A stretch of DNA of 24,753 nucleotides, from positions 1-24,753 of the IMG/VR virus record IMGVR_UViG_3300027573_000109; one strand, given 5' to 3'. Shown in pieces: positions 3,223-20,538 of the stretch (its first letter is position 1; every line of letters begins with the position of its first letter). Below the pieces are notes generated by a model, which was given only the letters and a program-made list of their open reading frames with translations, ran no database searches and was not told the DNA's origin. The translations under genes and the position numbers were made by a program. The stretch comes from a virus.

Positions 3223-3226
3223 TGAT

Positions 3227-4084
3227 ATGAAAAATGGAGAATCGCTAAACTATAAGTTCGGCACCAAAAATCACTGGAGGCGCACGATATGGAATCGGAT
3301 TGTCGAGCGGCTTTTTGTTCCGGCAAAAGACGCTGTCGTTTTATACCTCGCTGGGGAACAGGATTTAGATCGCACAATTGCTGTGGCTAAGGGATTTCAA
3401 TCGCACAATCTAATCGCTATAGATCGAAGTAAAAGAGTCGTAAAAATGCTACGGAACAACGGCACGCTCGCCCTGCATGGCAATTTGATCGAAGTTATAG
3501 GTGAATGGCAGAACCTTAAAGTTGATGTTGTATTCGCGGACTGTTGCAGCGGCGTTTCACCTGAGGTGGCATTCCTAGCCATAAAACTGGGAACTGCTGA
3601 AAGTTTTAAAGATTCAGTTCTCGCGTTCAACCTCATGCGCGGGCGCGATTACTGGAAAGGGTTTTCAGACCAAGACGGTAGTTGGATTGGTAAGCATCGG
3701 GGATTGTGGATTGCGGGCTTGAACGCTGGGTCGTTTCAGGCCGTGGTTCCCGGCATAGCGGCGGCGATCGAATACCAGGCATTGCGCGGGCGAAGCATTG
3801 CCGAATGGGCAACAGAGCGAGCGATGGCAACGCCGCTATCATACAAAAGTAAATCCGGGCAGATATTTGACTCAGTGGTATGGCGGAATTGTTCGATGTG
3901 GGAATTTCTCAGAGATCAGGAGACATTTTTTCAAATAGAGTGCGCACGTAACGGAATAGCTTTCTCAGGGACTGACGTGCAAGCGTTCGTAGACCGTCGC
4001 CAAAAGACGGACACATCAAAGCCAATCACCAGACAGATCGCCGCAATCAAAGCAACACGCACGCGGATAATGTCAACGCAGTGA
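3227..4084 (+). CDS. SAM-dependent methyltransferase-like protein
   Basis: A 285-residue protein with a Rossmann-like N-terminal half. VVLYLAGEQDLD (about residues 37-48) resembles motif I, LIAIDRS (62-68) an acidic motif II, and VDVVFADCCSG (98-108) a motif IV strand. This fits a class I methyltransferase-like fold, but the glycine-rich loop is weak and no target-specific motif (NPPY or PCQ) is seen, so substrate and activity are unknown. A related arrangement, LYLAG-x-x-x-LD followed by AxDxxxxxxxxxR and VDVVxADxC, occurs in phage proteins I recall only loosely. The base composition is more AT-rich than the flanking genes, suggesting a cargo gene. It starts 5 bases after the previous stop and overlaps the next gene by GTGA. 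Confidence 0.55.
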   Translation: MKNGESLNYKFGTKNHWRRTIWNRIVERLFVPAKDAVVLYLAGEQDLDRTIAVAKGFQSHNLIAIDRSKRVVKMLRNNGTLALHGNLIEVIGEWQNLKVDVVFADCCSGVSPEVAFLAIKLGTAESFKDSVLAFNLMRGRDYWKGFSDQDGSWIGKHRGLWIAGLNAGSFQAVVPGIAAAIEYQALRGRSIAEWATERAMATPLSYKSKSGQIFDSVVWRNCSMWEFLRDQETFFQIECARNGIAFSGTDVQAFVDRRQKTDTSKPITRQIAAIKATRTRIMSTQ

Positions 4085-4569
4085 ACCCATTCACTCTGAT
4101 GCCAAAACGCATCCATCTCTCCAAACGCCAAGGGCAGATTGCCCGGCTAATGCTCGATGGAATGACCGACAAAGAAATGGCTTCGGCCCTCAATCTTTCG
4201 GTGCATACAGTCGGGCATCATGTGCGTGTGTTGTTCAAAAAATTGAAGGTGAGGAAGCGCACTCAAGCCGCGATGAAATGTTTGAACATGCGGCTTCCAA
4301 ATGCGCGACCATCGTTTATTTACTTTCTCTTCTGCGAGAAAATAAATCGCGTAAAAATCGGAGTTTCGGATTCTCCGGAAATCCGTATCGTGCGACATTA
4401 TACGTCCTGCCCTTTCCCGTTGGAATTGCTGCGCGTCATAAGCGGACCGAGATCATTGGAACGCAGCATCCATAAGCGATTCGAACACATTCGTCGGCAC
4501 CTAGAATGGTTCGAAGCTTCACCTGAACTTCTGAAATATATCAGGGACCTGCCTAGCGTGAAAAACTAA
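4081..4569 (+). CDS. LuxR-type HTH fused to MUG113 / T5orf172 (GIY-YIG-like) domain
   Basis: A two-domain protein of 162 residues. Residues 11-70 form a LuxR/GerE helix-turn-helix: LSKRQGQIARLMLDGMTDKE, then MASALNLSVHTVGHHV and LFKKLKVRKRTQA, the usual DNA-binding signature. Residues 78-155 match the MUG113/T5orf172 group of GIY-YIG-like domains: FIYFLF, VKIGVSDSPEIRI, SLERSIHKRF and LEWFEASPELLKYI. Candidate catalytic residues are Arg102 and Glu127. It could be a regulator, or a sequence-directed nicking or homing-like enzyme. The start is the GTG that overlaps the preceding stop; an ATG at 4099 is an alternative that leaves both domains intact. It lies in the same AT-rich insert as the methyltransferase-like gene. 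Confidence 0.75.
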   Translation: MNPFTLMPKRIHLSKRQGQIARLMLDGMTDKEMASALNLSVHTVGHHVRVLFKKLKVRKRTQAAMKCLNMRLPNARPSFIYFLFCEKINRVKIGVSDSPEIRIVRHYTSCPFPLELLRVISGPRSLERSIHKRFEHIRRHLEWFEASPELLKYIRDLPSVKN

Positions 4570-4581
4570 CACGTTTACGTG
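4570..4581. promoter_or_regulatory. short palindrome CACGT-TT-ACGTG
   Basis: A perfect inverted repeat with 5-bp arms and a 2-base spacer begins just after the stop of the LuxR-HTH gene, in the 50-base gap before the next gene. It could be an operator, for example for the neighbouring HTH protein, or chance. No clear -35/-10 pair is seen beside it. Confidence 0.25.
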
Positions 4582-4619
4582 AATAGCGGAACGCCCCACT
4601 TAACCCTCAGAGTTGATGC

Positions 4620-5177
4620 GTGGCGACACGCTTCATCGCGTTATCAACCGACGACCTGCGTTCCATGTTGGAACGTGCGTGGGATGCGTGCCCAGCCGAG
4701 ACTCCATTTTTTGATTATTTAAAATCGCTCGAGGTCGAGGCTGCTGAGATCGCGCGCGACAACGTTCAAAACTCTTCTTCCAATGGTCATTCATCGGGCG
4801 CCTTCATGCCCGGCGAGAATAAGCCGACGGAAACCGAAGAGGTTCGCGGTTACCGCAGGCTGATTGATGAATTCCGAAAGAACCGTTCTTACCTTCGCTA
4901 CTGTTCGAAATACGGCTTCGACGCTTTCTCGGTAAAACAGAACGGACAATTCCCAAGCCCTCCGGCTGCGCTCGCTGCTGACCTCCGGGTAATCGTCGAC
5001 GACGACGCCAACTGGGAATTGCTTTGCGAGCAGTTCGACCTCGCGACCGGAGATGTTGTCGGCGTGGTAGTCGGCGACGAGGCCGTATTCCTCTGGATCA
5101 TGGACAATCTGTTCCCGGTCACCGAGGGCCGCAGTGATTACAGTCAGTTGCTCACCATCGCCGGAGGTGTTGAGTGA
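4620..5177 (+). CDS. hypothetical protein preceding the portal
   Basis: Not recognised. The 185-residue product has a helical N-terminus (STDDLRSMLERAWDACPAET), a low-complexity NSSSNGHSSG linker near residue 55, and an acidic alpha/beta C-terminal half. The start is a GTG at 4620 with a weak CAGAG upstream; an ATG about 14 codons in is possible. It lies directly upstream of the portal and overlaps it by GTGA, the position where lambda has the head-tail joining protein W, but it is much longer than W and I see no similarity. A head or connector role is inferred from position alone. Confidence 0.55.
   Translation: MATRFIALSTDDLRSMLERAWDACPAETPFFDYLKSLEVEAAEIARDNVQNSSSNGHSSGAFMPGENKPTETEEVRGYRRLIDEFRKNRSYLRYCSKYGFDAFSVKQNGQFPSPPAALAADLRVIVDDDANWELLCEQFDLATGDVVGVVVGDEAVFLWIMDNLFPVTEGRSDYSQLLTIAGGVE
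5163..5176 (+). promoter_or_regulatory. strong ribosome binding site and GTG start of portal
   Basis: GGAGG at 5163-5167 lies 6 bases before the GTG at 5174, which itself overlaps the upstream stop (GTGA). This decides the portal start in favour of GTG, with no competing ATG nearby. Confidence 0.75.
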
Positions 5178-6832
5178 AGGTCAAGGTTCCACTTTCACTC
5201 CGAATGTCTGCGGTGGTGAGCACACTGTTGAGCGGCACGCGTCTTGGCGCGGCCTTCGATCAGTTCGTTCTCAATCGCTACGAAGCCGCGCTGCCGTCGC
5301 CCGGACGGCCGTTCATTCCCGGCTTCGCGCAGGACGCGCGCTTCGACGCCACGGCGTTTACGCGATGGGAGCTCGCGCGCAAGGTCCGTTACTACTTTCG
5401 CAATACCTGGCTGCTTCCCCGGCTCGCCGAAGAGGACGTCAAATACACTTGCGGACCTCACGGGCTCAGCGTCACGCCAGCGTCTTCGGATTCGGAATGG
5501 AACAAGCGGATGGATGAAGCCTTTCAGGAATGGTGCGAGTCACCGTTCCGCGATTCCAGCATTCCCATGTCTCAAGGTCATCGCTTGCTCTGGAAGGAGG
5601 CGCACATGGACGGCGAGGTCTTCGCGAGTTGCACCAGGCTCAAAATGCGCGGCGAACAATCGAAGCCCGCGATCGAGTTGATTGAAAGCCATCGTTGCTC
5701 GTCTCCCGATCTCTTCGGCATCGGCAGTGAGATGATTGTCGACGGCGTGCAACTGGGGCTCGACGCCAACGGCATCGCGATCGGCAGGCCCGCCGGTTAT
5801 CACATTCGCGACGGGGTCGAGGGTGACACCTTCCGTCTGGTGCCGGCGTTCAACAATCAACGGCCATCGTCTGGCGGCGTCATCCACATTTACGATCCGG
5901 AACGCATCGGCATGTATCGCGCGGTCACCGGTTACGCTTCGATCCTCAACCAGACCGCCGACCTCGAGCTGCTCGCCGGCCTGGAGATGTCGCGTGCGAA
6001 GGCGAATGCTGAAGACGCCAAGATTTTCGAAAGTTGGAACGGCGAACTTCCGCCCCATATGCAGGGCACGGGGTCAGGATCCTTCCTTCCGGTAAGCGGT
6101 CAGCCTGCAATTCCCGGGACCACAGTGGATAAGGAGCTAGAGAAGCGGGTTTCGCAGATGCGCACGATTTTGGGCTCTCGGATTGTCGCGGTGCGGCCCG
6201 GGGAAAAGATGAATTACCCAGAGAATCCCTCGCCGTCCGCCGCCCAGCAATGGCTCTGGAAGCTCGTCATCGCCCAGATTTGCACGGCGCGCAGCATTCC
6301 GATGATGCTCGTGTTGCCGGAATCCATTCAGGGAACCGTTGGCCGCGCGGTCCTGGACGATGCTCACCTCTCTTTCCTCGCGAAGTTCAGCATCATGAGC
6401 CGGGTTGCCCGGCAGTTCTACTGGTTCTTCGCGGATTGGGCTCGCTACAACGTGCCAGGCCTGACTGATGCCCCCGCCGACTGGAAGCGTTGCAAGGTCA
6501 CGCCGCCGCGTGCCTGCAATGTGGACAAGGGCAAAAACACGGCCGCAAATCTCGCCTCGATCGCCGCCGGAACCCGCACTTACGGAGATGAAGCCGCCGA
6601 CGATGGCACGACTGCCGAGAGCCGGTTTCGCCGCAAGGCCGTGGAGATTGGATTAGCCAAACAGATTGCCGCTGAGGTCAGCAAAGAAATGGGCGTTGAA
6701 GTTCTGCCGGCTGAAATCATCGGCAACATCGCCGACATCGCTCAACGACTCGGACTCGCAAAACAATCCTCTGGTATCGGAGAGCAAGCGGAAGCGATCG
6801 CCGAGAAAACAGAGGCGGAGGTGGAGGCATGA
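5174..6832 (+). CDS. phage portal protein, lambda GpB-like
   Basis: Portal protein, the dodecameric ring at the head vertex through which DNA passes. The 552 residues match the usual length of lambda-family portals (about 500-550). Typical features are the N-terminal LSGTRLGAAFDQFVLNRYEA region, FTRWELARKVRYYFRNTW, an internal LLWKEAHMDGEVFA core, the IHIYDPERIGMYR segment (in place of the family's H-x-F-x-P-x-R-x-x-Q-x-R-G), and the downstream helix ADLELLAGLEMSRAKANAED. It sits between an unknown small gene and the protease-capsid gene, as in the lambda B-C order, and ends with an ATGA overlap to the protease gene. The C-terminal 60 residues are charged and helical. Confidence 0.9.
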   Translation: MKVKVPLSLRMSAVVSTLLSGTRLGAAFDQFVLNRYEAALPSPGRPFIPGFAQDARFDATAFTRWELARKVRYYFRNTWLLPRLAEEDVKYTCGPHGLSVTPASSDSEWNKRMDEAFQEWCESPFRDSSIPMSQGHRLLWKEAHMDGEVFASCTRLKMRGEQSKPAIELIESHRCSSPDLFGIGSEMIVDGVQLGLDANGIAIGRPAGYHIRDGVEGDTFRLVPAFNNQRPSSGGVIHIYDPERIGMYRAVTGYASILNQTADLELLAGLEMSRAKANAEDAKIFESWNGELPPHMQGTGSGSFLPVSGQPAIPGTTVDKELEKRVSQMRTILGSRIVAVRPGEKMNYPENPSPSAAQQWLWKLVIAQICTARSIPMMLVLPESIQGTVGRAVLDDAHLSFLAKFSIMSRVARQFYWFFADWARYNVPGLTDAPADWKRCKVTPPRACNVDKGKNTAANLASIAAGTRTYGDEAADDGTTAESRFRRKAVEIGLAKQIAAEVSKEMGVEVLPAEIIGNIADIAQRLGLAKQSSGIGEQAEAIAEKTEAEVEA

Positions 6833-9711: not shown

Positions 9712-10251
9712 ATGAAAGAACAATTCCGACAGATCAAAAAGATGGTGACAGTCGCGGCTGTCATGACGATGGCCGTGGTTTCGCTTCACGCCGGCGATCA
9801 AGCGCTGATGATGCTCACCGGCACCAACGTCCTGAACGCTGGCGGGGCTCCGCTGACGAACTTCTACGCGGTGCCGCGCGATGTGACCGGCACTTTCACG
9901 AACGGCATCTCGTTGGCGGGCCTGGCGCCGAACGATTACTTCCATTGCGACAAGACAACCGTCTTGAACGTGATGGCCGGCGGGTATTTCGGCAATACCA
10001 ACGCGACTGTCGACAATAAATTCTTCCGGTTGCTCCGCTCGACAGACCTGTCCCATTGGCAGGATGCCGGCGACTTCGTGATGGTCTCAGTGCCGGCAAG
10101 ATCAACGAACTGGTATACCGGCACGATGACGATCACAGCGCCTTACACCGGGTATGTGTTGCGTCAAATCGACGGCACGAACATCACGGCGGCGGGCAGC
10201 AATACCGGGACGAATCTGTTTATTAACGGCTTCACCCATGACGGCCAATGA
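9712..10251 (+). CDS. exported beta-rich protein with Sec signal peptide
   Basis: A 179-residue protein of unknown function. Residues 1-28 look like a Sec signal: basic MKEQFRQIKKM, hydrophobic VTVAAVMTMAVVSL, then HA|GD as a probable cleavage point. The mature part is rich in Thr, Asn, Gly and aromatic residues and seems all-beta. The phrase RSTDLSHWQDAGDFVMV resembles beta-strand motifs of carbohydrate-active or surface proteins, but no family is certain. AAGAGA precedes the ATG. A signal peptide on a gene placed among head genes is odd: the product may be a periplasmic or surface factor, or a virion protein with a hydrophobic N-terminus. Confidence 0.65.
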   Translation: MKEQFRQIKKMVTVAAVMTMAVVSLHAGDQALMMLTGTNVLNAGGAPLTNFYAVPRDVTGTFTNGISLAGLAPNDYFHCDKTTVLNVMAGGYFGNTNATVDNKFFRLLRSTDLSHWQDAGDFVMVSVPARSTNWYTGTMTITAPYTGYVLRQIDGTNITAAGSNTGTNLFINGFTHDGQ

Positions 10252-10257
10252 TGCGCC

Positions 10258-10581
10258 ATGGTCGATCTCGAAGAACGCGGGTTCCGGCGCATGCTGCGGC
10301 TCAAGGGTCGCAGTATGCGTAATCTGAGAACCAACGTTCATTTCACGGCAACAGTCAATCACGTCGGTGAATTCAATCTCTCAACTGAACTCAGCGACGA
10401 CCCGCGCTCGGATGCCGTGATGGAGTTGGTGTTGATCGGCGCGCCCGAGATTCATTCTCAGGATCAGGTTCAGAACGTTAAGACCGGCGAAAAATGGAAT
10501 GTAGTGAAGCAGAAGTTCGATTGCCCGCACTACGCCAAAAAATACGAGTTGAAACAGATCGTCCCAGGCATCGACACATGA
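10258..10581 (+). CDS. putative head-tail joining protein (FII position)
   Basis: A 107-residue soluble protein. Its length, its position after the capsid gene and its beta-rich C-terminal ending (HYAKKYELKQIVPG) are compatible with lambda FII-like head-tail connectors, whose strands end in a similar turn. No diagnostic motif is seen, so the role is inferred. The ATG at 10258 lies 6 bases after the previous stop without an obvious ribosome binding site, so translation is probably coupled. It ends in an ATGA overlap with the giant fibre-like gene. Confidence 0.45.
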   Translation: MVDLEERGFRRMLRLKGRSMRNLRTNVHFTATVNHVGEFNLSTELSDDPRSDAVMELVLIGAPEIHSQDQVQNVKTGEKWNVVKQKFDCPHYAKKYELKQIVPGIDT

Positions 10582-13500
10582 TCTCCCAAAGCCGCAAAGG
10601 AATCCCCGGGCGAGCCAGCGCGTTCATCGGCGTGCTTGCCTGCCTGTTCGCGCTGGCTTTCTCGGCGGCGGCCTCGCCGGTCACCTTCACGATGACCAAT
10701 GAGTTCGGGGCGCCGAACACGAACTACATCCGCTTGCAAAAGCTGCAGGCTGAGATTCAGGCCGACGGTTCCTTCGTGACGGCTGGCGTTCCATTCAGGA
10801 TTTATCCCAATGCCAGCGGCTTCGTGCAAACAAATCTGCCGTCGGGATCCTGGTGGGCATCGAATCAATTCATCGTCTCGCAGTTCGGCATGCCGGGCGG
10901 CGGCGGTTCCTCGGCGGGCTTCTTTTTTATCGTGGACAACAGCGGCGAGACCAATCCGTTCACCTACTATCCGCAGTCCGGGCCAAACGTCCTGAACTGG
11001 CGCTCAGGCATTCGCGGTATCATCGGCACCAACGGGTTTACCACGCACACGAATAACGGTGTCATCACCCTCGACGGCGCGCTGTTCACACCGACGTCGA
11101 ATCAGGTCTTCACGTCGTTCGGCTTCTTTCCGTTGTCCGCGTTGGAGGTGACGAATCGGATTGCTGGTGCCGTGCCAACAAATTATTGGAGTTCATCGGC
11201 GCTGCTCTGGCTTTCGAACCTCGTGTTCAACGCGCACGCCTACGGGTTGGTGGACACGAACGATCTCCGGCTGGCCACCAATGCGCTGCAGGTCGTCATT
11301 GATACCAAGCAGGCCACGCTCGGTTATGTTCCGGCGACAAACAGCAACGCCGGGATCGTGGCCGCGCAGGGTTTCGCCTCGCAGCCGACGAATGTAAACC
11401 TGACGGGCTTCAGCCTGCTACAAACCAATCAACTCGCATCAACTAACGTGGCGACGGCGACTGTGACTGGGCTTCTGAGGCCCAGCGATTGGACGAATTT
11501 CAACGCGAAGCAAAACATTCTCGCCGTTGGCACAAACATGGTTGCCTACACGAACGCGAACGGCGTGTTGATCATCAATGCCACGGGCAGCGGAAGTGGC
11601 AGCGGCCAAAGCGTGGCGCCAGGGACGCTGATGACCGCGACGACAAACGGGACGCTGACGACGGTCAGCGCGGTCGGACAGACCAACGGCTTGCAGGCGA
11701 CGGCGTTCACGCCGCTGACCGCCTTTCAGCCTTCCGACAGCGATCTCACGAACTGGGCGACCATCGGCACGAATCAATTTTCACGGACGAACGTCGCCAG
11801 CGCGAGCGTCACAGGTCCGCTCAGCTCGAATGACTTCCTGAGCTTCAGCACGATCACTAATGCGCTCAAGGCAGGCGCTTACTCGATCGTGCCCAACCCG
11901 CAGCCCGCCGACGCCGATCTCACGAACTGGGCGAACTATCCGACGAATGTCTATCTTCCGTCGCAGGCCGGGCGCGGAACAAATACAACGTTCAATCACG
12001 TCACCAACATTGGCCGCGTGTGGTTTAACACCGGGGATTTTATCGATCCCAGCGGCGATGTCTCGCTCGGCAATGCGAATGTCGGCATTGATGGCGCCGG
12101 AACATTGACAGCCCCGACCATGACGACGGTGGACGGGCAAGGACTTGAAAACTTGGACGCTAGCAATCTCGCGCTGGGGACCGTGGCCGTCGCGCGCCTG
12201 CCCTACGTCCCACAGCCAACAAATACCGTGCTGACCGGCTGGACGGCTCACCCCACAAATCTTTACGCGATCTTTGAGCAACTTCTCAAGATCGACACGA
12301 ACACCGTGGTCTTGACGAATGCCGGGACCGCCGTCGTCATGCAGGGCGGCTACAAGTGGAATGGCGGCATATATTCGAACGAGTTCAACAGCGCTCACTA
12401 CATCGTCTACGAGCCCCCTTCGTGGATCGTGAAGTCGAATACGACGAGCCTTTACAGCGCGTCAGCGGTCAACGGCAGTTACGTGGCGGTCAACGGCGCG
12501 GCCCCAGCCCCGATTGGCATCTTCGGACTGACGATCAATGCTGCGGCTGTTGTGTTTCAGAATTGGGTCAACAGCACAAATCTCGGCGCGCGAATGTCTG
12601 CATTGACGAATGGACTCGGAAACGCGGCGTTCATGACAGCCAACAGTCTCACCAACGGATTTGTGACGGCCGGCGTTACGAACGGACTGGCAACCACGAA
12701 CTACGTCACCGGCCAGGGCTACGTTACCAGCACGGTTACCAACGGGCTGGCTTCGGTTAATTTCACGACGAACCTGAACACGATTTCGAGCAACGCGCTT
12801 CAGGCGCAGATCAGCGGCTTCGTCGCCGGGAGCGGGTTCCAGACCAATAACGGCACCGGGACGAATAACATTTTCACCGGGATGACGCTCGGCGGCGACA
12901 TGAGCGCCAACTCAAAGAATATCCTCGGCGTAAACCTCATGTCCTTTTCTGGTGATGTGTATATCACGAACGCCGATCAGCTTCATGCAAACGTGGTTAT
13001 TGGCGGAACGCAGAACTCGTTCGGTAATTCATCCTTCCATTTCGGAAGCGTCGTCATCGGTGGAACTCTCAACGTAATCACAAATGACACGAGTTCGATC
13101 TCTTACGCGGCCATCCTCGGCGGTTCTCAGAATGTAATTTCGAATTCCTCTGACAACGCGGCCATCGTCGGCGGCTTTCGCAATTCTTTCGGGGATCAGT
13201 CTGATTACTCACTCATTTCTGGAGGAACAAACAACGCGATCCGGGCCGCAAGTGCTGCAATCGTTGGCGGCGCTAATAATCGCATATTAGGCGTCGGCAG
13301 CGCGAGCAACCCCGACAACGCATACAACGGCATCTTCTCAGGTCGGGGAAACATTCTCTCGAACGCTCAATACTCGTTCATCGGCGGAGGACTTTCAAAC
13401 GTGGTGATGGCAAGCAACGCTTTTGTCTTGGGCGTGCGCGGGCGCGTGCTTCCAAGTCACGATGGTTCCGTCGTCATCTCTGATAATCGTGGCACCTTCT

Positions 13501-15476
13501 TCGATACTGCGACGAATCAGCAGGTGATCATTCGCATGGCGAACGGCGTCTCGATTGGGACCAATGATCCAAGCTCGAACGCGATGCTGAAGGTTGCCGG
13601 GCCGGTGAGTGCGACCGCGTTCATCGGACCATTGTCGTCGGGGATCACGAACCAATGGAGACTGGACGCCACCAACGCGGCGCGCAGCGTTTTGTCTGAT
13701 TTCTTCAATGGCCGCTACAACACAAATCAGTTCTTCCTCAGCCACGACAGCTTCACGAATAGCTGGCCGGACTACTCCTCTGCATACGAGGGGCAATGGG
13801 ACTGGTCGGATGCCGCGGGCGGGTGGATTCCATTCGTGAATGACCCAACACTTGAGCAACTCATCACCAATTGGGGGAACGGAATATATTGGATAACAAA
13901 CCTAACAAGCGGAGGCGCTCCTTACTACTCACTTGCGACTGAATTCCCATTTACATGGCGGACCAATTCAGACCCAACGGAAATCGAAACCGCTTTAGGC
14001 TCCGCACCGACAAACTCCGTTTATGCGGCAGCCGAAGTGTTGGAACTGGTGAAGACCTCTCAGCTTGCACGAGTGAGCTTGTCGCCTTCTGTCCCAACAA
14101 CCGGGGTGGATATAGTTCCACAACTCGGATTCGAGCAGGATGTTTCATTCACGTCGTCTGAACGCGCCGTAACCAACACGATTAAGATCGCGAAGGAAAA
14201 CGGAATGTCGCAGTTCTACCGAATCATTCTGCTTAACAATTGGACGGCGTCCACGCGGGATGCAAACGGCAACCTTCAAGCAGACAGTCAGTTCCCAAGC
14301 GGCATGGCTTACGTGGCGAATTACATTCATACGAATGGGTTCAAGCTGGGGCTGCAAATCCAGATGTCCGGGAGCGCTGAACTGCAATACCACATGCATC
14401 AGGATGCGACCAATATGATCGGCACCTGGGGCGCTGACGCAGTGTTGATCGATTTCAATAGCGGCTCATATCGCAAGACCGACGAGACATACCGCAATCT
14501 GGTGGAGCAATTCATTGTTGAGCTTCGGGACGCCTCAAAGATATACCGCCGACCGATACATATTTCGATCTCTGGCGCGCCCGAGGAATTTGAGCCGTGG
14601 GTTGCCGCCGCTGGTAATTCATGGACATTCGGCCCCGATGGAAACGCCGACCCCGGCAACCTGACAAACCATGTCGGCATCTTGTCGGAAGCCGTTAGCT
14701 ATAGCGGACCGGGGCATCACTACAACATGAATTCCCTGTCGCTATTCAGCGGCAATACCAATTTGTTTCTTGGGGCTCTGGCCATGCGGGCAATTGGTCC
14801 AAGCCGCATCGTTGTTCACGATACCAACTTCACGGCGTTCTCCTTGATCAGCCTGACGAACGCGAGCTTGCTGGCCATTCATCAGGACAAAGATGGTCGA
14901 GCGGGCCGAATCGTTTCTACAAATGGGCTGGCGCAAACATGGTATCGCCAACTTTCCAGCGGCGAACATGCTGTCGCGCTCTGGAACCCGACGACAACCG
15001 CCACCGCCGTCACGCTGAATCTAAACGACATCGGACTTCGCACAAACGATGTCGTCAATGTTCACACCGTGTTTTGGGAAACGAATTTCACGGCGACATC
15101 AGGCTTCACGGTGACCGTGCCAACGAACACGGCCCTCCTCTACACGATCCGGCAAGCCATCCTGACCAATGACATCGCGCTGAACACTCCGTTTACTAAT
15201 GGCCCTATCGGGCTGGATATCGCTGAATCCTTCGTGTTGACCTCGGCGACCGATGGATCGGCGACGGTTGCCGCATACATTGATACGGAGAACGATGGCA
15301 CCTTCGAGCAGACTGGTATCAAAGTCAGCCTTGGCACCAACGTCGTGACGTTCGGCACCTTCCAGCTCTCTTTTTACGTTCCACCTTTTGCTTCAGCGAC
15401 TCTGACAAATCTCTCAACCAGCACGGCTACGGCAACGGTATCCGGCGGTAGCACACAGAAGAGGCCGCGTAAATGA
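10578..15476 (+). CDS. giant secreted fibre-like protein with YadA-like repeats and GH27 alpha-galactosidase-like domain
   Basis: A 1632-residue modular protein. Residues 1-34 form a Sec signal (basic start, AFIGVLACLFALAFSAAA, then SP). Residues about 210-640 contain Thr/Asn-rich fibre repeats (LTNWATIGTN, LTNWANYPTN, LTGWTAHPTN) and the fibre phrase GLENLDASNLALGTVAVARL. Residues 670-760 repeat TNGL units typical of trimeric stalks. Residues 805-957 repeat V-I-x-G-G-x-x-N-x-I, like YadA/Hia-type beta-rolls. Residues 1177-1440 match GH27: RDANGNLQADSQFPSGM, YIHTNGFKLGLQ, VLIDFNS (candidate nucleophile Asp1292), SWTFGPDGN (candidate acid/base Asp1354), GPGHHYNMN and LAIHQDKDG. A beta domain follows. 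The family's DDxW substrate-binding pair reads NNW (1220-1222). The start is the ATG overlapping the previous stop; it also gives the signal peptide. It probably acts in glycan binding or depolymerisation at the cell surface or on the virion. Confidence 0.8.
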   Translation: MISQSRKGIPGRASAFIGVLACLFALAFSAAASPVTFTMTNEFGAPNTNYIRLQKLQAEIQADGSFVTAGVPFRIYPNASGFVQTNLPSGSWWASNQFIVSQFGMPGGGGSSAGFFFIVDNSGETNPFTYYPQSGPNVLNWRSGIRGIIGTNGFTTHTNNGVITLDGALFTPTSNQVFTSFGFFPLSALEVTNRIAGAVPTNYWSSSALLWLSNLVFNAHAYGLVDTNDLRLATNALQVVIDTKQATLGYVPATNSNAGIVAAQGFASQPTNVNLTGFSLLQTNQLASTNVATATVTGLLRPSDWTNFNAKQNILAVGTNMVAYTNANGVLIINATGSGSGSGQSVAPGTLMTATTNGTLTTVSAVGQTNGLQATAFTPLTAFQPSDSDLTNWATIGTNQFSRTNVASASVTGPLSSNDFLSFSTITNALKAGAYSIVPNPQPADADLTNWANYPTNVYLPSQAGRGTNTTFNHVTNIGRVWFNTGDFIDPSGDVSLGNANVGIDGAGTLTAPTMTTVDGQGLENLDASNLALGTVAVARLPYVPQPTNTVLTGWTAHPTNLYAIFEQLLKIDTNTVVLTNAGTAVVMQGGYKWNGGIYSNEFNSAHYIVYEPPSWIVKSNTTSLYSASAVNGSYVAVNGAAPAPIGIFGLTINAAAVVFQNWVNSTNLGARMSALTNGLGNAAFMTANSLTNGFVTAGVTNGLATTNYVTGQGYVTSTVTNGLASVNFTTNLNTISSNALQAQISGFVAGSGFQTNNGTGTNNIFTGMTLGGDMSANSKNILGVNLMSFSGDVYITNADQLHANVVIGGTQNSFGNSSFHFGSVVIGGTLNVITNDTSSISYAAILGGSQNVISNSSDNAAIVGGFRNSFGDQSDYSLISGGTNNAIRAASAAIVGGANNRILGVGSASNPDNAYNGIFSGRGNILSNAQYSFIGGGLSNVVMASNAFVLGVRGRVLPSHDGSVVISDNRGTFFDTATNQQVIIRMANGVSIGTNDPSSNAMLKVAGPVSATAFIGPLSSGITNQWRLDATNAARSVLSDFFNGRYNTNQFFLSHDSFTNSWPDYSSAYEGQWDWSDAAGGWIPFVNDPTLEQLITNWGNGIYWITNLTSGGAPYYSLATEFPFTWRTNSDPTEIETALGSAPTNSVYAAAEVLELVKTSQLARVSLSPSVPTTGVDIVPQLGFEQDVSFTSSERAVTNTIKIAKENGMSQFYRIILLNNWTASTRDANGNLQADSQFPSGMAYVANYIHTNGFKLGLQIQMSGSAELQYHMHQDATNMIGTWGADAVLIDFNSGSYRKTDETYRNLVEQFIVELRDASKIYRRPIHISISGAPEEFEPWVAAAGNSWTFGPDGNADPGNLTNHVGILSEAVSYSGPGHHYNMNSLSLFSGNTNLFLGALAMRAIGPSRIVVHDTNFTAFSLISLTNASLLAIHQDKDGRAGRIVSTNGLAQTWYRQLSSGEHAVALWNPTTTATAVTLNLNDIGLRTNDVVNVHTVFWETNFTATSGFTVTVPTNTALLYTIRQAILTNDIALNTPFTNGPIGLDIAESFVLTSATDGSATVAAYIDTENDGTFEQTGIKVSLGTNVVTFGTFQLSFYVPPFASATLTNLSTSTATATVSGGSTQKRPRK
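11741..11760 (+). repeat. 20-bp direct repeat, copy 1 (fibre gene)
   Basis: This 20-bp stretch, starting CGATCTCACG, is identical to 11915-11934. It encodes DLTNWA, the core of a recurring fibre motif, and marks a recent internal duplication or a recombination point. Confidence 0.8.
11915..11934 (+). repeat. 20-bp direct repeat, copy 2 (fibre gene)
   Basis: Identical at all 20 bases to 11741-11760, 174 bases downstream and in the same reading frame. The surrounding repeat units have diverged (TIGTNQF versus NYPTNVY). Confidence 0.8.
12990..13440 (+). repeat. YadA/Hia-like beta-roll repeat region in the fibre gene
   Basis: The encoded stretch (about residues 805-955) repeats a short unit of the form hydrophobic-x-GG-x-x-N-x-hydrophobic: VVIGGTQNSF, VVIGGTLNVI, AILGGSQNVI, AIVGGFRNSF, LISGGTNNAI, AIVGGANNRI, IFSGRGNIL, FIGGGLSNVV. 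This is the pattern of trimeric autotransporter head beta-rolls, so the protein is probably trimeric. Confidence 0.7.
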
Positions 15477-16081
15477 ACCGCCGCGACTCAACAATTGTTT
15501 GGCTGTTTTTGTGGGCGGCACTCATTGGCCTTTTCTTCGGCTGCGTGATGACGCCGCGATCCGACAAGGTGATTGCCGAACCGTTCGTTTTCATTCCAGT
15601 GACCTCGCCGGTTCCAATGGTCACCGAAGCCTCCTCGCGGGCGAATGCGCTTCCTCCGCCGCAACGGGTCACATTCACGGTGACAAACTATTGTGACGCG
15701 CTCTCTGGTGCCGAAGGCTATCAGTTCGGCGTTGGCACACAGACAGGTCAATACACGCGGCTGATTGACGCAGGAACGAACACACGCTGCGGGATCAGCG
15801 GACTCGCCATCGCAACTCGCTATTACATCGCGGTGCGCGGTTACAACCGTTATTCGACTTCGCAGTGGTCAGCGGCGCTGGTATGGCCGCGCCAGCGCAC
15901 GAACTGGTGGGAAGTCGCGCCGAATAGTTACATCAGTGTCAACATGACCGGCCCGTGGACGGCGTTGAACACGAATCGGCTTTACGAGTTTCCTGGCAAC
16001 GTGGGTTTCATCCGCGCCACGGGCGGCAAGGCGTGGATTGTCGCAAGCAACAACATCACCGGATACCAACACTTCGAATGA
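15473..16081 (+). CDS. membrane-anchored or lipoprotein-like protein with FnIII-like domain
   Basis: A 202-residue protein whose ATG overlaps the stop of the giant fibre gene (ATGA). Residues 9-24 are hydrophobic and end in LFFGC, which only partly fits a lipobox (Cys24), so either a lipoprotein or an N-terminal membrane anchor is possible. Residues about 65-140 look like a fibronectin type III domain (QRVTFTVTNY, YQFGVGTQTGQYT, TRYYIAVRGYNRY). The C-terminal 60 residues are aromatic and beta-rich (TNWWEVAPNSYISVNMTGPW). It is a plausible surface partner or anchor for the fibre-like protein; function unknown. Confidence 0.65.
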   Translation: MNRRDSTIVWLFLWAALIGLFFGCVMTPRSDKVIAEPFVFIPVTSPVPMVTEASSRANALPPPQRVTFTVTNYCDALSGAEGYQFGVGTQTGQYTRLIDAGTNTRCGISGLAIATRYYIAVRGYNRYSTSQWSAALVWPRQRTNWWEVAPNSYISVNMTGPWTALNTNRLYEFPGNVGFIRATGGKAWIVASNNITGYQHFE

Positions 16082-16452
16082 ACCGACTTGTCGAATGGAA
16101 TAATCACCTGATGGGACTTCCCAGTGGCGCGCTTCTCTTTATCGCGCTCATCGGACTTGGCTACGTGCTGAAACGCACGCACTGGTTTCACAACAACTCA
16201 ATACCCGTCGTGCTGATGGCTGTCGGGCTGGGATTATTTCTGCTCGTCTGTCCTGAACGCACGTCTGATATAAGCCTTCGCAATTGGTGGGGCCGCAACA
16301 TTCTCATCGGGCTCATTATTCCTTTCACGTCCTGGATGGCGCACCGCGTCGTCCTCAAGCGCATCGAAAGAAAGTTTGGACTCTTCGCCGCAAACGGAGA
16401 CTCCGACAGCGACCCCGTTGCATTCACAAAACCAACCGAACCAAAACTATGA
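16078..16452 (+). CDS. putative holin (three membrane segments)
   Basis: A 124-residue membrane protein starting at the ATG that overlaps the previous stop (ATGA). Hydrophobic segments lie at about 14-31 (LPSGALLFIALIGLGYVL), 42-58 (IPVVLMAVGLGLFLLVC) and 72-88 (GRNILIGLIIPFTSWMA). A basic stretch (HRVVLKRIERKF) and a hydrophilic tail follow. Size, number of segments and the charged C-terminus fit class I-type holins, and the overall pattern resembles phage holin proteins I have seen. Holins open the inner membrane for lysis. Spanin-like genes downstream support this. No endolysin is recognisable next to it. Confidence 0.6.
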   Translation: MNRLVEWNNHLMGLPSGALLFIALIGLGYVLKRTHWFHNNSIPVVLMAVGLGLFLLVCPERTSDISLRNWWGRNILIGLIIPFTSWMAHRVVLKRIERKFGLFAANGDSDSDPVAFTKPTEPKL

Positions 16453-17015
16453 GAAAACTACTCGCAATCGCAACCCTCATCGCCTTGTGCTTCACGGCAC
16501 AGGCGCAAACGAATGACACTTGGATTTCCCGCGCTCTAACGTTCAAGCAATACGTCGAGGAAACAAGGACATTGACCGTCGCCGTGTATCCATCCTACGC
16601 GCCTACGTTGAAGATCGGCGACACGAAGAAGCCGTGGGGCTTTGGCGCTGCGGCTTTCTACCCGTTGTCTGACCACACGTTTACCGGCTTCCGCGCTGAT
16701 TACCTCGGCGGCGACTTCTTCGCGGCTCAGGCGAATGTTGGACTGAAAGCCGATTTCCAGATTTTCGGTCACAACTTTACCACGTTCGGAATCACGGGCG
16801 GCTTACTCCCGATTCAAGGCGCAGGTGGCGACAACTTTAGTCCCGGCTTCATTGTTGGCGGCGGCGTCCGCACGGCAATCTTTCAACGCAAGACTCAGCG
16901 CACAACCTTTGTCCTGAGTCTGTCCTACGAAGGTGAGAGGTGGCAGGTGCCGAATACCAGTCTCGACGGCGCAATGGTTCATCACGTCGCCCTTGATGGG
17001 ACTTGGAAGTTCTAA
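16449..17015 (+). CDS. outer-membrane beta-barrel protein (Lom/OmpW-like size)
   Basis: A 188-residue protein beginning with a clean Sec signal (MRKLLAIATLIALCFTAQA|Q, cleavage after residue 19). The mature part alternates polar and hydrophobic or aromatic residues in strand-length blocks (TLTVAVYPSYAP, WGFGAAAFYPL, FTGFRADYLGG, FTTFGITGGLL, PGFIVGGGVRT, TTFVLSLSYEGERW) and ends in Phe, the usual beta-barrel assembly signal. About eight strands are likely. Phage-encoded barrels such as lambda Lom alter the host surface, so receptor masking, superinfection exclusion or adhesion are possible. The ATG overlaps the holin-like stop (ATGA) and the stop overlaps the next start (TAATG). Confidence 0.7.
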   Translation: MRKLLAIATLIALCFTAQAQTNDTWISRALTFKQYVEETRTLTVAVYPSYAPTLKIGDTKKPWGFGAAAFYPLSDHTFTGFRADYLGGDFFAAQANVGLKADFQIFGHNFTTFGITGGLLPIQGAGGDNFSPGFIVGGGVRTAIFQRKTQRTTFVLSLSYEGERWQVPNTSLDGAMVHHVALDGTWKF

Positions 17016-17209
17016 TGTGGAAACAAATTCTCAACGCAATCCTTTGGCTGGTCGTCCGGTTCTTCAAACGCCGCGACGACCCGCAAAAGCAGTATGAACG
17101 AGCACGGCAAGAGAATGCGCGGATTATTGCGGACCATGACGCTGACGGTCTTAATCGCAAGCTCGACCGGCTTACTGACCGCGTGCCGGACAGTAGTGAT
17201 TCCGAGTGA
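17015..17209 (+). CDS. small membrane-anchored helical protein, inner-membrane spanin-like (Rz-position)
   Basis: A 64-residue protein with one N-terminal membrane segment (about 4-17, QILNAILWLVVRFF) followed by a highly charged helix (KRRDDPQKQYERARQENARI). That is the layout of an inner-membrane spanin, though it is much shorter than classic Rz. The ATG at 17015 overlaps the upstream stop (TAATG). The next gene, a lipoprotein in another frame, starts inside this one, as in Rz/Rz1 pairs. Spanins fuse the inner and outer membranes during lysis. The assignment rests on layout, not sequence similarity. Confidence 0.45.
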   Translation: MWKQILNAILWLVVRFFKRRDDPQKQYERARQENARIIADHDADGLNRKLDRLTDRVPDSSDSE

Positions 17210-17321
17210 TGAAGTGGTTGTCAGGATGCCAGCGGGGACGAACTACACGGCAAAGGTGGACGGTTGGTTCGTTCCTGATGCGCGGATGCAGAAGATTTTG
17301 GATGCGCTGGATAGGAAATGA
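17094..17321 (+). CDS. small lipoprotein overlapping the previous gene, outer-membrane spanin-like (Rz1-position)
   Basis: A 75-residue product with a lipoprotein signal: a basic start, hydrophobic TLTVLIASSTG, and the lipobox LLTAC with Cys31 as the lipidated residue. The mature 45 residues (RTVVIPSDEVVVRMPAGTNY and a helical VPDARMQKILDALDR) are not proline-rich, unlike lambda Rz1. The first 116 bases overlap the preceding membrane-helix gene in another frame, typical of nested spanin genes. Alternative starts at 17115 or 17136 keep the lipobox. It could instead be an unrelated small lipoprotein of phage lysis or surface function. It ends in an ATGA overlap. Confidence 0.5.
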   Translation: MNEHGKRMRGLLRTMTLTVLIASSTGLLTACRTVVIPSDEVVVRMPAGTNYTAKVDGWFVPDARMQKILDALDRK

Positions 17322-17530
17322 ACAATATCAACATTCAAGTTACGGCCCGATTGGAGTGGCATCCGGAAGATGCTGACGGCTCGGCCTGCGCGTGCTGTGG
17401 TGATGCTATTTACCTCATCAATCAGTATCGCGCCGTGTCATTTATCACCATCCGCAACAACCCACAGGAAGAACGAGTTGAGACTGTCATCGTCGTGTGT
17501 GGCGCATGTCACGAAGCGCATTGTAAATGA
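17318..17530 (+). CDS. small Cys-rich, probably zinc-binding protein
   Basis: A 70-residue protein with two CxxC pairs, Cys24-x-x-Cys27 and Cys61-x-x-Cys64, plus His65, His68 and Cys69 near the end (CGACHEAHC). The spacing of 33 residues between the pairs fits a zinc-ribbon or treble-clef knuckle. No specific family is recognised; nucleic-acid or protein binding is the likely use. The ATG overlaps the previous stop (ATGA), and its own stop overlaps the cold-shock gene start. Confidence 0.6.
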   Translation: MNNINIQVTARLEWHPEDADGSACACCGDAIYLINQYRAVSFITIRNNPQEERVETVIVVCGACHEAHCK

Positions 17531-17787
17531 GCCTGATTCAAACCGGCAAAGTTAAGTTTTTCGACGCTCAAAAGGGCTGGGGATTCATTGCCCCGACGGC
17601 CGGAGGTATTGAGCATTTCGTGCATTACAGCGGCATCCTTGGCACCGGCTACCGCTATCTCGAGCAGGAAGACTTCGTGGAGTTCGAGTCGGTGCCGGAT
17701 CCGCAGAAAGGTTTGCGCGCGGAGAAAGTCAAAGTCCTGAGCAGAAGCAAGAAACCTGAACCAAAAGTTAAACACGTCAGAGATTGA
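17527..17787 (+). CDS. cold-shock domain protein (CspA family)
   Basis: An 86-residue cold-shock-domain protein, an OB-fold that binds single-stranded RNA or DNA. It starts with GKVKFFDAQKGWGFI, containing an RNP1-type KGWGFI (16-21, Trp in place of the usual Phe/Tyr), followed by an RNP2-type HFVHYSGI (30-37), and ends with the typical V-x-F-x-x-x-x-x-x-x-G-x-x-A strand (VEFESVPDPQKGLRAEKV). A short basic tail follows. The ATG overlaps the stop of the Cys-rich gene (ATGA). Within a phage late operon it may act as an RNA chaperone, for example unwinding structured late mRNA; this is inference. Confidence 0.9.
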   Translation: MSLIQTGKVKFFDAQKGWGFIAPTAGGIEHFVHYSGILGTGYRYLEQEDFVEFESVPDPQKGLRAEKVKVLSRSKKPEPKVKHVRD

Positions 17788-17792
17788 AAATT

Positions 17793-18044
17793 ATGAAACG
17801 ACATCAACTATTCAAATCGGCGAGCGATTTCGCTTACGAGACACTCGACAACAAGGACCCGGCGGCGCTCGACATCGCTGTCGCTGAACGGTTCAAAAAG
17901 GAAGGCTTGAACCCGGCGGATTACACGCTGTGGAAACAATTCTTCCAGCAATCCCGGCAGCAATTGGTAGCCCTGGCATCGCAGAATGCGCCGAGCTTCA
18001 AGCCCGCCCCGGCTCCGAGTGCCGCCGTCAAACCCGTGAAGTAA
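17793..18044 (+). CDS. small hypothetical protein (83 aa)
   Basis: Not recognised. The product is helical (FAYETLDNKDPAALDIAVAE, LWKQFFQQSRQQLVALASQN) with an Ala/Pro/Lys-rich C-terminal tail (FKPAPAPSAAVKPVK). I chose the ATG at 17793; a TTG at 17784 that overlaps the cold-shock stop (TTGA) would add three residues. The stop is directly followed by the ATG of the Z-position tail gene. Confidence 0.55.
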   Translation: MKRHQLFKSASDFAYETLDNKDPAALDIAVAERFKKEGLNPADYTLWKQFFQQSRQQLVALASQNAPSFKPAPAPSAAVKPVK

Positions 18045-18863
18045 ATGTCGAAATCCGGCGCCATAGGTTCGCTACAGATGAACGCCGCGCGGTTAAACTC
18101 CGCGATGGCGCAATACATGAATTCCGCGAAGTTGGCCCCAAAGGTTGTCGTCGAAGCGCAGGCTGGCATTCTGATGCGCGAACTCGCCGAGGATTCAGCG
18201 CCTGAAAATCGCGCGACACTTGAGCGCAACATGCGCAAGGATTTGGCTAAGGTTTATGCGCCGTCTCCGAAGGTGATGCTTCCGATCGCGCATCGACAGG
18301 GCAAAGGATTCACATGGTTGATGGCGAGCCCGACAGTTCTGCTCGGAACGCGCAACCAGAACGCGCACCTCGAGGATTCCGTTGGGGATGTGCAGCGACT
18401 CTTCCACCGCACCCAAAAGGCACAGGTCATTAAGGGCAAGAAATACATCGACCGTGGCAAGCGAGGTCGGCAGTCGATTGCAGAGTTGAATCGGATTGTC
18501 GTGCGACGCGGAGTTTTTTCCAGGTCGCTTGCATGGCTTAAGAGTCGTGCAGGTATTCTCGGCGGCTCCTGGGCGATCGCGTGGGACGTTCTGAGGCCCG
18601 GCGGTCGCCGTCCGCCGGCGTTCAAAATGCGGCATGTGGCCACCGGCCATGCAAAGGGCACATACATCAACGGACTCGGCGTGCCTGGCAAGGCGAGCTT
18701 CACATTGATCAACCGGGCAACCGGCTCGGAAAGCCAGAAGTCACTCGCCATGATTTCCGGGGCGCTCAGGCATCGTGCCGAGGCGATGAAGGTGGACATG
18801 AAAAACATTCTGCGCGGCGCTTACAAGCGTGCGGGATTCTCAAAGGCTAAATCCAATGCCTGA
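18045..18863 (+). CDS. putative minor tail / tail-completion protein (Z position)
   Basis: A basic 272-residue protein with a helical N-terminal region (VVVEAQAGILMRELAEDSAP) and many Arg/Lys residues in the middle (KKYIDRGKRGRQS). It is directly followed by two genes that fit the U and V positions of lambda, so this is the Z / gp10-type slot, which joins tail to head. The opening pattern, a region proposing to act on a set of subunits followed by a long basic domain, is compatible with that family but no firm motif is seen. The start is immediately after the preceding TAA. The last 8 bases overlap the next gene. Confidence 0.5.
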   Translation: MSKSGAIGSLQMNAARLNSAMAQYMNSAKLAPKVVVEAQAGILMRELAEDSAPENRATLERNMRKDLAKVYAPSPKVMLPIAHRQGKGFTWLMASPTVLLGTRNQNAHLEDSVGDVQRLFHRTQKAQVIKGKKYIDRGKRGRQSIAELNRIVVRRGVFSRSLAWLKSRAGILGGSWAIAWDVLRPGGRRPPAFKMRHVATGHAKGTYINGLGVPGKASFTLINRATGSESQKSLAMISGALRHRAEAMKVDMKNILRGAYKRAGFSKAKSNA

Positions 18864-19383
18864 CGCCGAAGCCATAGCACTTGTCTACGATCTCGAGGCC
18901 GTGTGCGAGAACGCGCTGAAGGCCGTCTTTGCCGCCAATCAGATTCAGGCTTTTACGACTCAAGACATTGGCGTGGTGGGGGCCGATGGCAATCCGGTTA
19001 TTGATTTCCAGAAGGCCAGACCACGGGTGGAGATCATGTTTGTCCCCGGCGCCGGGCAGGGTCGATTCCGCGAGATGATCGTTGATGGCATTCGAACGCC
19101 GGTTGAAACCTGCTGGAAGGGGCAATTCAAGCTCGACCTGATCACGGATGCCAGAATCAACATTCACGCTGCCTTCCGGACCTTCACTCGCTTTCTGATG
19201 CAGACAATGGTCTGGCGCATCAACGGCACGGCGCCGATGGAGATTCACAAAATTCAACGCTTTCCACGGGACGGCGGCACGTCGCCCGTGATGAAACCGC
19301 AGGACGGTTACCTGCAAACCACCATGCTCTACGATGTCGACCTGAGCGTTCAAGACAACGCCTGGGCCGCTCTGGAAACATAA
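18856..19383 (+). CDS. putative tail terminator protein (U position)
   Basis: A 175-residue protein of mixed alpha/beta character: an N-terminal helix (AIALVYDLEAVCENALKAVF), strands (PRVEIMFVP, QFKLDLITD), a long helix (AAFRTFTRFLMQTM) and a final strand (TTMLYDVDLSV). This resembles the fold order of siphovirus tail terminators, which cap the tail tube. It lies between the Z-position gene and the probable tail tube gene. Function is inferred from position and secondary-structure pattern. The ATG at 18856 overlaps the end of the preceding gene by 8 bases. Confidence 0.55.
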   Translation: MPDAEAIALVYDLEAVCENALKAVFAANQIQAFTTQDIGVVGADGNPVIDFQKARPRVEIMFVPGAGQGRFREMIVDGIRTPVETCWKGQFKLDLITDARINIHAAFRTFTRFLMQTMVWRINGTAPMEIHKIQRFPRDGGTSPVMKPQDGYLQTTMLYDVDLSVQDNAWAALET

Positions 19384-19405
19384 CAATAAACGAAAGAACA
19401 AAACT

Positions 19406-19858
19406 ATGGCACTACCCAATACTGCATATGTCTCCGGAGGAGTTCAGTTCGGAGGCATCTTTGTCAACGTTTTCCGGCTCGCTGATCCGGATGACAACTC
19501 CAGTGGTGTCCTGCTTGGCCGATACCTTGTCGAAACCATTACGCCCAGCGATTCCGGCATTCTCGGCAAACGGCCGGGCGCCGATGGCGGCCGTAACGGC
19601 TGGTGGATTTGTGACGGTGACGTCGAAGGCAGCGCCGTCATCCAGCGAACCGTTGCCACGACACCGAGCCTGAAAAATGGCGATTACTTCGATGCCGCGG
19701 TGCGCGTGGATTCTAACGGTGATCCTGTCGCCGAGCGGTTTGTGATTCACTCGCCAGGGCACGAAGTCGGCACCAGCTACCGGAAGCAGAACGTCAGCGT
19801 CATCGTTGATCAAAGTGCGACTGGCGTGAATGCTGGCGACCAGGAAAGCCCGACCTGA
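19406..19858 (+). CDS. putative major tail tube protein (V position)
   Basis: A compact 150-residue, beta-rich protein that follows the terminator-position gene and precedes the chaperone-position gene, the slot of the tail tube subunit. GAAAGA upstream of the ATG and a separate 22-base gap give it more independent translation than its coupled neighbours, which suits a high-copy protein. Segments such as VQFGGIFVNVFRLADP, WICDGDVEGSAVIQRTV and QNVSVIVDQSA look like strands. No family motif is certain. It ends in a TGATG overlap. Confidence 0.55.
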   Translation: MALPNTAYVSGGVQFGGIFVNVFRLADPDDNSSGVLLGRYLVETITPSDSGILGKRPGADGGRNGWWICDGDVEGSAVIQRTVATTPSLKNGDYFDAAVRVDSNGDPVAERFVIHSPGHEVGTSYRKQNVSVIVDQSATGVNAGDQESPT

Positions 19859-20538
19859 TGACGGAGGACGTCAAATCGGAATACGCGCGAGAACTCTTAC
19901 AGGCGATCGATACCGAGCGCGTTGTAAGAGCTTCATCGTTTCATCTGCGGACGGAAAAGCTGCTGGACTTCGACGTCGTTCCGTTGACGCTCCGGAAGTA
20001 TTCTCTGCTGCGGTTACTCAACTCGCCGTTCATTCCGCCGTTTGACACGCCGTCACCTATCGATCTCGCGCAGTTTCTTTGGGTCATGTCGCCGCAGTTC
20101 GATGCAAATGATAGTCAGGCAAAGAGTGCGTTCTTCCGACGCTGCCGAGGCTTCATCCAACCGGCGCCGCCGCGGTTGCGGATGTTGCGATGGCTTTGGA
20201 AAAGCCGTTGCATGGATGCCTCGATCTATGAGGCCGCGCTAGTCGATGCTGCCCGCGCATTCGTCGCGGAAGCCATGCAGGATCGCCCTGAGCCGGTCAA
20301 CGCCGGGCTCGAGGCCCCGGCCTATTATTGCGATGAAATCGGGCTCTGCGCGGCGCTGGGACGTGAACATCACTTTGAGGAGTCCAGCGTCATCGAGATG
20401 CCGTTGAAACGCATCTTTCAATACCTTAAAGAAATCAGGGATCGTGACGCCGCCAAGGCTGGCCAATACGCGTTGCTCTGTAATCCCAGCGATCGCGTGA
20501 AGGACAAGTATCTGGAAGCCGCCAACCGAAAGAACTGA
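19858..20538 (+). CDS. putative tail assembly chaperone-position protein
   Basis: A 226-residue, mostly helical protein between the probable tail tube gene and the tape measure gene, where tail assembly chaperones (lambda G/GT) are found. The segment VVPLTLRKYSLLRLLNSPFI and the later helical repeat are compatible with that, but the protein is longer than usual. I looked for a slippery heptamer leading to an extended frame near its end and saw none. TGATG overlaps mark both its start and its stop. The role is inferred from position only. Confidence 0.5.
   Translation: MTEDVKSEYARELLQAIDTERVVRASSFHLRTEKLLDFDVVPLTLRKYSLLRLLNSPFIPPFDTPSPIDLAQFLWVMSPQFDANDSQAKSAFFRRCRGFIQPAPPRLRMLRWLWKSRCMDASIYEAALVDAARAFVAEAMQDRPEPVNAGLEAPAYYCDEIGLCAALGREHHFEESSVIEMPLKRIFQYLKEIRDRDAAKAGQYALLCNPSDRVKDKYLEAANRKN

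Follow-up and report, generated by a model that had tools for sequence, protein, structure and literature searches.

The locus studied here lies in a 24,753-base virus record from an unclassified phage (hereafter the window, meaning the whole of this stretch). One of its ORFs, P0001, encodes a fibre-like protein with a C-terminal module resembling GH27 alpha-galactosidases, and it raises two questions: what such a module does on a phage fibre, and where the protein that carries it acts. The explanation we prefer, with a probability of roughly 0.5, is that P0001 is a Sec-exported protein of the fibre or tailspike type, whose re-specialised GH27-fold module would act on a host-surface glycan. 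The fold and family of the module, its residue changes, the gene context and the occurrence of the protein class in related phages were computed here.

Layout of P0001

The protein can be divided as follows.

10578..15476, + strand: P0001, 1632-aa fibre-like protein (open frame)
10578..10673, + strand: predicted Sec signal peptide, residues 1–32 (KGIPGRASAFIGVLACLFALAFSAAA|SP; simple heuristic)
10674..10889, + strand: N-terminal domain, residues 33–104, common to signal-peptide proteins of related phages
10890..13673, + strand: Thr/Asn-rich fibre-like region (sequence inspection)
14100..14900, + strand: GH27 (beta/alpha)8 barrel, residues ~1175–1441 (homology and model)
14925..15149, + strand: GH27 C-terminal beta-sandwich (Melibiase_C), residues 1450–1524 (Pfam PF17801, E=7.6e-8)
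15150..15473, + strand: GEVED-like C-terminal domain, residues ~1525–1632 (PF20009, E=1.5e-4; 23.0 bits when the domain is searched alone, below the cut-off of 24.4)

P0001 is called fibre-like for two reasons: the fibre-type motifs that it contains and the swappable C-terminal carbohydrate modules found on related proteins. The motifs include SDWTNFNAKQ (11481), a run of IGG-x-x-N repeats (12993–13280) and IGTNDPSSN (13542). Searches of the fibre-like region against Pfam, PHROGs and the PDB returned nothing significant, and a reading of the IGG repeats as YadA-like or TNF-like was rejected when the PDB search gave no significant match. The Thr- and Asn-rich style of the protein is reminiscent of Verrucomicrobiota, which may include the host.

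When viral contigs were scanned with the portal, the capsid and the fibre N-terminus, the sole match was a near-identical contig (G001) of 46,042 bases with a 127-base terminal overlap, that is, with circular-type ends. In this independent contig the P0001 protein is identical, and its DNA has one synonymous difference. In one place 1377 bases of the window (3225–4601) are replaced by an unrelated 514-base stretch (G001 26890–27403); the remainder is 99.6–99.96% identical. This difference is a recent exchange of accessory genes.

Homology and fold of the GH27 module

The original prediction picked out a series of GH27 motifs from the sequence alone, and all of them are in frame, in the stated order and at the stated residues within the ORF at 10578–15476 (+). 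They are an Asn pair at residues 1220–1221 (window position 14235), RDANG at 1227, FPSGM at 1239, VLIDF containing Asp1292 (14451), WTFGPD containing Asp1354 (14637), GPGHHYN at 1377 and LAIHQDKDG at 1432. Two Pfam families matched the domain above their curated cut-offs, Melibiase_2 at residues 1195–1307 (E=1.2e-9) and Melibiase_C at residues 1450–1523 (E=7.6e-8). In a PDB sequence search the best matches were plant alpha-galactosidases, 6f4c (E=5.5e-25) and 1uas (E=1.1e-22), both spanning nearly the entire module, and an hhalign comparison with a 12-member GH27 profile gave a probability of 99.8% (E=6e-30, 348 columns covered). One hundred shuffled versions of the domain gave no match at E≤10.

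A predicted structure was the second check, and it contains both the barrel and the C-terminal sandwich (AlphaFold mean pLDDT 82, pTM 0.82; pLDDT >90 in the Melibiase_C sandwich). The best 38 PDB matches of the model in Foldseek were all of the GH27 type, with 1uas leading at a TM-score of 0.83. The alignment given to AlphaFold consisted of 48 bacterial GH27 relatives, so the model expresses compatibility with the fold and is not independent proof of it. The prediction had the right module with too early an end, at 14900: the beta-sandwich belongs to the GH27 unit, and the end therefore moves to about residue 1524 (window position ~15149). That P0001 carries a complete GH27 unit, barrel plus sandwich, at residues ~1175–1524 is certain as a matter of homology.

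Rice (1UAS) and Nicotiana benthamiana (6F4C) alpha-galactosidases share with P0001 the barrel and C-terminal sandwich, both catalytic Asp residues and the RD..G, FP.G, A.Y.H and Q-D motifs, at TM-scores of 0.83–0.85. Sequence identity is only ~22–31%, however, and P0001 differs in having NNW for DDCW, Leu for Lys in KxD, Thr for Arg, Asn at both NDPD Asp positions, no pocket cysteines, a removed beta3 loop and a fusion to a fibre. Close relatives of the domain were sought by a single-sequence scan of genome contigs and none were found; a family-level scan of genomes returned only standard GH27 proteins, 24–31% identical to the P0001 domain.

A rebuilt active-site pocket

To compare the pocket, P0001 was aligned with 48 GH27 sequences from genomes at 12 near-invariant columns – an analyst's choice that combined residues published as lining the pocket in the human enzyme (PMC5082870) with the pocket cysteines and the two Asp positions of NDPD. 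The proposed catalytic pair held up well: Asp1292 (nucleophile) and Asp1354 (acid/base) fall in columns where 47 of the 48 sequences have Asp, a placement on which phmmer, MAFFT and hhalign agree. These two are the only pocket columns kept in P0001, and the other ten are changed. Asp-Asp has become Asn-Asn, a Tyr is replaced by Gln1260, the Lys of KxD by Leu1290, the Arg before the acid/base by Thr1350 and both NDPD aspartates by Asn1383 and Asn1385; three Cys are lost, and the beta3 loop is partly absent. Sugar binding in the human enzyme involves D92, D93, K168, E203, R227 and D231 (PMC5082870). P0001 has N, N, L and T at the positions of D92, D93, K168 and R227, and the CEW motif of E203, which lies outside the 12 scored columns, is absent. 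The change in the sugar-binding pair, NNW for DDxW, was thus correctly seen, but the loss is wider than had been predicted, with almost the whole −1 subsite replaced.

Two properties of the sequence bear on how the Asn residues are read. Compared with DDCW, NNW lacks one residue; in the phmmer and MAFFT alignments NN falls on DD and the Cys is gone, whereas hhalign places NN on D-C, so that the exact DD-to-NN register is uncertain by one residue. The overall Asn content of P0001 is 9.6%, and the Asp-to-Asn changes may therefore partly reflect composition. Among the other conserved barrel columns 34 of 67 are kept, compared to 2 of 12 in the pocket (Fisher p=0.056), which is only suggestive of a preferential loss of pocket columns.

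A standard alpha-galactosidase pocket is excluded by these changes. The prediction had offered two outcomes, an altered specificity or mere binding, and the pocket residues are consistent with either an altered glycosidase or a lectin-like binder. A dead enzyme, binding in the manner of a lectin or forming a structural tip, also fits the loss of most pocket residues (ten of the 12 columns, among them the KxD Lys, the Arg, the NDPD Asp pair, both pocket Cys and the beta3 loop), and we consider it a real possibility, somewhat short of even odds. The survivors, however, are exactly the catalytic pair. Two random survivors among 12 columns would be this pair with a chance of 1/66, which mildly favours retained catalysis, the argument being a weak one given that the columns were chosen by the analyst.

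GH27 domains are rare among phages

That a GH27 domain would be unusual in a phage was borne out by searches of GenBank phages, IMG/VR and a viral structure library. Only two of 50,697 GenBank phage records matched, MT837193.1 and MT836088.1. Both are unverified fecal scaffolds with a stand-alone GH27 gene amid bacterial metabolic and regulatory genes; they look mislabelled and were not counted as phage GH27. These 'Bacteriophage sp.' entries are probably bacterial DNA. Pattern scans of 2.9 million IMG/VR contigs with two GH27 alignments found the window phage or nothing, though such scans require conserved peptide words and so can miss members of the family. In the BFVD viral structure library the sole GH27-fold match was the alpha-galactosidase of Tetraselmis virus 1. 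It has the same fold as the P0001 module (TM-score 0.81–0.84) but is a stand-alone protein of 356 aa from a giant virus of a eukaryotic alga. A single GH27 among viral genes has been listed in a coral virome (PMC11656804). We found no report of a GH27 phage fibre, or of tail fibres bearing signal peptides, in the open-access literature, an absence that counts as weak evidence.

A predicted signal peptide among envelope and lysis genes

Residues 1–32 of P0001 have the three regions of a signal peptide by a simple heuristic: a charged n-region, a hydrophobic core (best 11-residue mean 2.85) and an A-x-A site. The only Cys of the protein, C22, is within this predicted signal peptide. On this basis P0001 is probably exported via Sec. 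The genes around it are listed below.

9712..10251, + strand: 179-aa protein, weaker predicted signal peptide (heuristic; counterparts at the same place in related phages)
15473..16081, + strand: 202-aa predicted lipoprotein, lipobox C24, fn3-like (overlaps P0001 by ATGA)
16078..16452, + strand: 124-aa holin, three hydrophobic segments (PHROG 1129 holin, E=1.1e-5)
16449..17015, + strand: 188-aa protein, predicted signal peptide, ends in F (heuristic and inspection)
17015..17209, + strand: 64-aa inner-spanin-like candidate (by arrangement: hydrophobic N-terminus, charged remainder)
17094..17321, + strand: 75-aa lipoprotein, outer-spanin-like, lipobox C31 (other frame, overlaps the 64-aa gene)
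at 18045: tail-completion-like gene (matches L009, E=3.5e-17)
at 20538: presumed tape measure (position only)

P0001 is part of an overlapping gene string with the lipoprotein, holin and spanin-like genes, and the tail genes are further downstream. The ATG that starts it shares an ATGA with the stop codon of the preceding gene, and the overlap with the downstream gene is also ATGA; such close packing with the holin gene and the late genes suggests that P0001 is expressed late, in the lytic phase. The holin also matches Pfam Phage_holin_5_2 (E=1.3e-5) at 25.8 bits, just under the cut-off of 29.2. The 188-aa protein is perhaps an outer-membrane barrel; it has no family match in PHROGs or Pfam, and a single-sequence model was uninformative (pLDDT 33). 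The spanin-like pair likewise has no match in PHROGs or Pfam. A cold-shock domain protein (17527–17787, +; Pfam CSD, E=4e-17) is encoded after the lysis string and before the tail genes.

P0001 had been described as a phage fibre. A fibre-like protein with a C-terminal module it is, but the signal peptide and the envelope and lysis neighbours upstream of the tail module change the picture: the protein may be exported, with or without a place in the virion.

Fibre-like proteins with predicted signal peptides in related phages

A terminase alignment used as the query yielded 41 loci, with terminases 36–54% identical except for that of the near-identical contig. None of the forty related loci has a GH27 domain. 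With one heuristic applied throughout – the same that is positive for P0001 – no signal peptide was called among 108 core ORFs; of the other ORFs, 4 of the 114 that precede the capsid gene were positive and 23 of the 80 that follow it (p=7e-7, downstream versus upstream, for ORFs that are not fully independent because some contigs are close relatives). Nine downstream ORFs have a length of 300 aa or more, and seven of these were positive; three of the seven (L110, L111, L116) are near relatives.

Large fibre- or tailspike-like proteins with predicted signal peptides are found downstream of the capsid gene in L105, L110, L116, L125, L126, L132, L137, L140, L143 and L144, those of L137, L140, L143 and L144 coming from the flanking DNA of other records. 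The related loci are fragments, and in the covered stretch of four others (L101, L104, L120, L130) no large signal-peptide protein was seen. The modules on these proteins vary: Pect-lyase in L126 (E=1.8e-16), Beta_helix in L132 (E=3.9e-12), GDSL esterase in L125 (E=3.1e-7) and, judged by eye, an esterase-like segment in L144. Residues 33–104 of P0001, its first domain, have counterparts in L119 (E=3e-12) and L140 (E=2e-4), and an HMM built from all three also detects the signal-peptide fibre of L105, 584 aa long (E=1.7e-12). Next after the L105 fibre comes a protein homologous to the 202-aa lipoprotein and carrying an LLAGC lipobox (E=2.2e-6).

Judged by sequence, the large fibre- or tailspike-like proteins of this phage group repeatedly bear signal peptides together with interchangeable C-terminal modules, the exchange being visible at the level of the class and not among close relatives. 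This class is more surprising than the GH27 variant itself, and it did not feature in the original prediction. Phage fibres with a C-terminal carbohydrate-active module are known from tailspike depolymerases such as the Erwinia phage phiEt88 tail fibre and the Acinetobacter phage Mithridates tailspike, and homologs of their modules are found on the signal-peptide fibres described here. P0001 is unlike these reference proteins in its GH27 module and in its predicted signal peptide, which is absent from all four of the reference tailspikes and tail proteins matching the L126 module in the same comparison.

In many of these phages a small signal-peptide protein is encoded right after the capsid or decoration genes. 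They were noted in L100 and L102 and at the following positions.

window 9712–10251
L006 9237–9854
L009 6587–7024
L105 18209–18769
L110 7359–7793
L119 11551–12132

Three observations were made in the 46-kb relative (L013). A 452-aa protein (18468–19826, +) resembles TnpB/Cas12-type RuvC nucleases by eye, with no match in Pfam or NCBIfam; a 334-aa protein (4763–5767, +) contains a long, near-perfect run of 'VGEMWGSSN / VGVMRESSK' repeats and has no Pfam match; and an IS1595-type transposase (17234–18109, −; Pfam E=7e-43) lies within the phage genome.

Where P0001 may act

The mechanism that we propose begins with a fibre-like carrier that would be made late in infection with a signal peptide and exported by the Sec system of the host. 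Its C-terminal GH27-fold module, one of several interchangeable modules that would be mounted on the exported fibres of this phage group, keeps the catalytic carboxylates Asp1292 and Asp1354 in a rebuilt and more open pocket, and would act on or bind a host-surface glycan. Once exported, P0001 could be displayed, be set free so as to loosen the surface polysaccharide during lysis, or join virions outside the cytoplasm. Export, catalysis, glycan target and destination, whether virion or cell, are what we infer from the computed features.

Export of an enzyme by a phage through the Sec pathway has a precedent. The endolysin Lys44 of phage fOg44 has a typical signal peptide and is exported before lysis (PMC6116005). 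Endolysins of this type act on peptidoglycan, however, while Pfam recognises no peptidoglycan hydrolase domain in P0001. Extending the argument to the whole group, we suggest more tentatively that these tailed phages export Sec-signal fibres with exchangeable modules, either as free or cell-displayed depolymerases at lysis or to join virions outside the cytoplasm. Virions of tailed phages assemble in the cytoplasm, with which an exported virion fibre fits poorly, and the signal-peptide assignments come from a simple heuristic.

An ordinary virion fibre or tailspike would avoid this difficulty of assembly. The hydrophobic N-terminus would then be an anchoring or assembly segment, and the GH27 module a virion depolymerase or receptor binder. 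The fibre-like motifs of P0001, the pectate-lyase, beta-helix and GDSL modules that are interchanged as on known tailspikes, and the lack of any other recognised fibre candidate in the window all agree with it. Fibre genes often precede holin genes, an order matched here. We nevertheless think it unlikely, since all three regions of a signal peptide are present at the N-terminus of P0001 and nothing similar is seen in the four reference tailspikes, and since the gene precedes the tail module and adjoins a lipoprotein gene.

More improbable still is a lysogenic-conversion (moron) protein that a prophage would display on the cell surface, for example changing a glycan against superinfection, and that would play no part in the virion. 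The signal peptides and lipoprotein at the locus, the secretion-associated GEVED-like domain and an integrase-like gene in the 46-kb relative (L013 1764–2981; Phage_integrase E=0.008, under the cut-off) would suit such a protein, but the class of fibre-like proteins to which P0001 belongs is found throughout the phage group, and the tight gene overlap points to late, lytic expression. An assembly artefact, or a host gene joined to a phage contig, can be dismissed as having next to no probability, since no point was found in its favour and the identical protein is present in a second contig with circular-type ends.

Significance

In the GH27 module of P0001 a known enzyme family turns up as a variant and in an unusual setting; our searches gave no other phage fibre with this fold. 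With its catalytic pair intact and the rest of the pocket rebuilt, the module is on its sequence a candidate for a new glycosidase specificity. If these fibres are indeed exported, this would break the picture in which the receptor-binding proteins of tailed phages fold and assemble in the cytoplasm. The exchangeable modules on exported fibres suggest a swappable tool for the sugars of bacterial surfaces, and such modules on a common exported carrier may offer a route to predicting the surface-glycan targets of uncultured phages.
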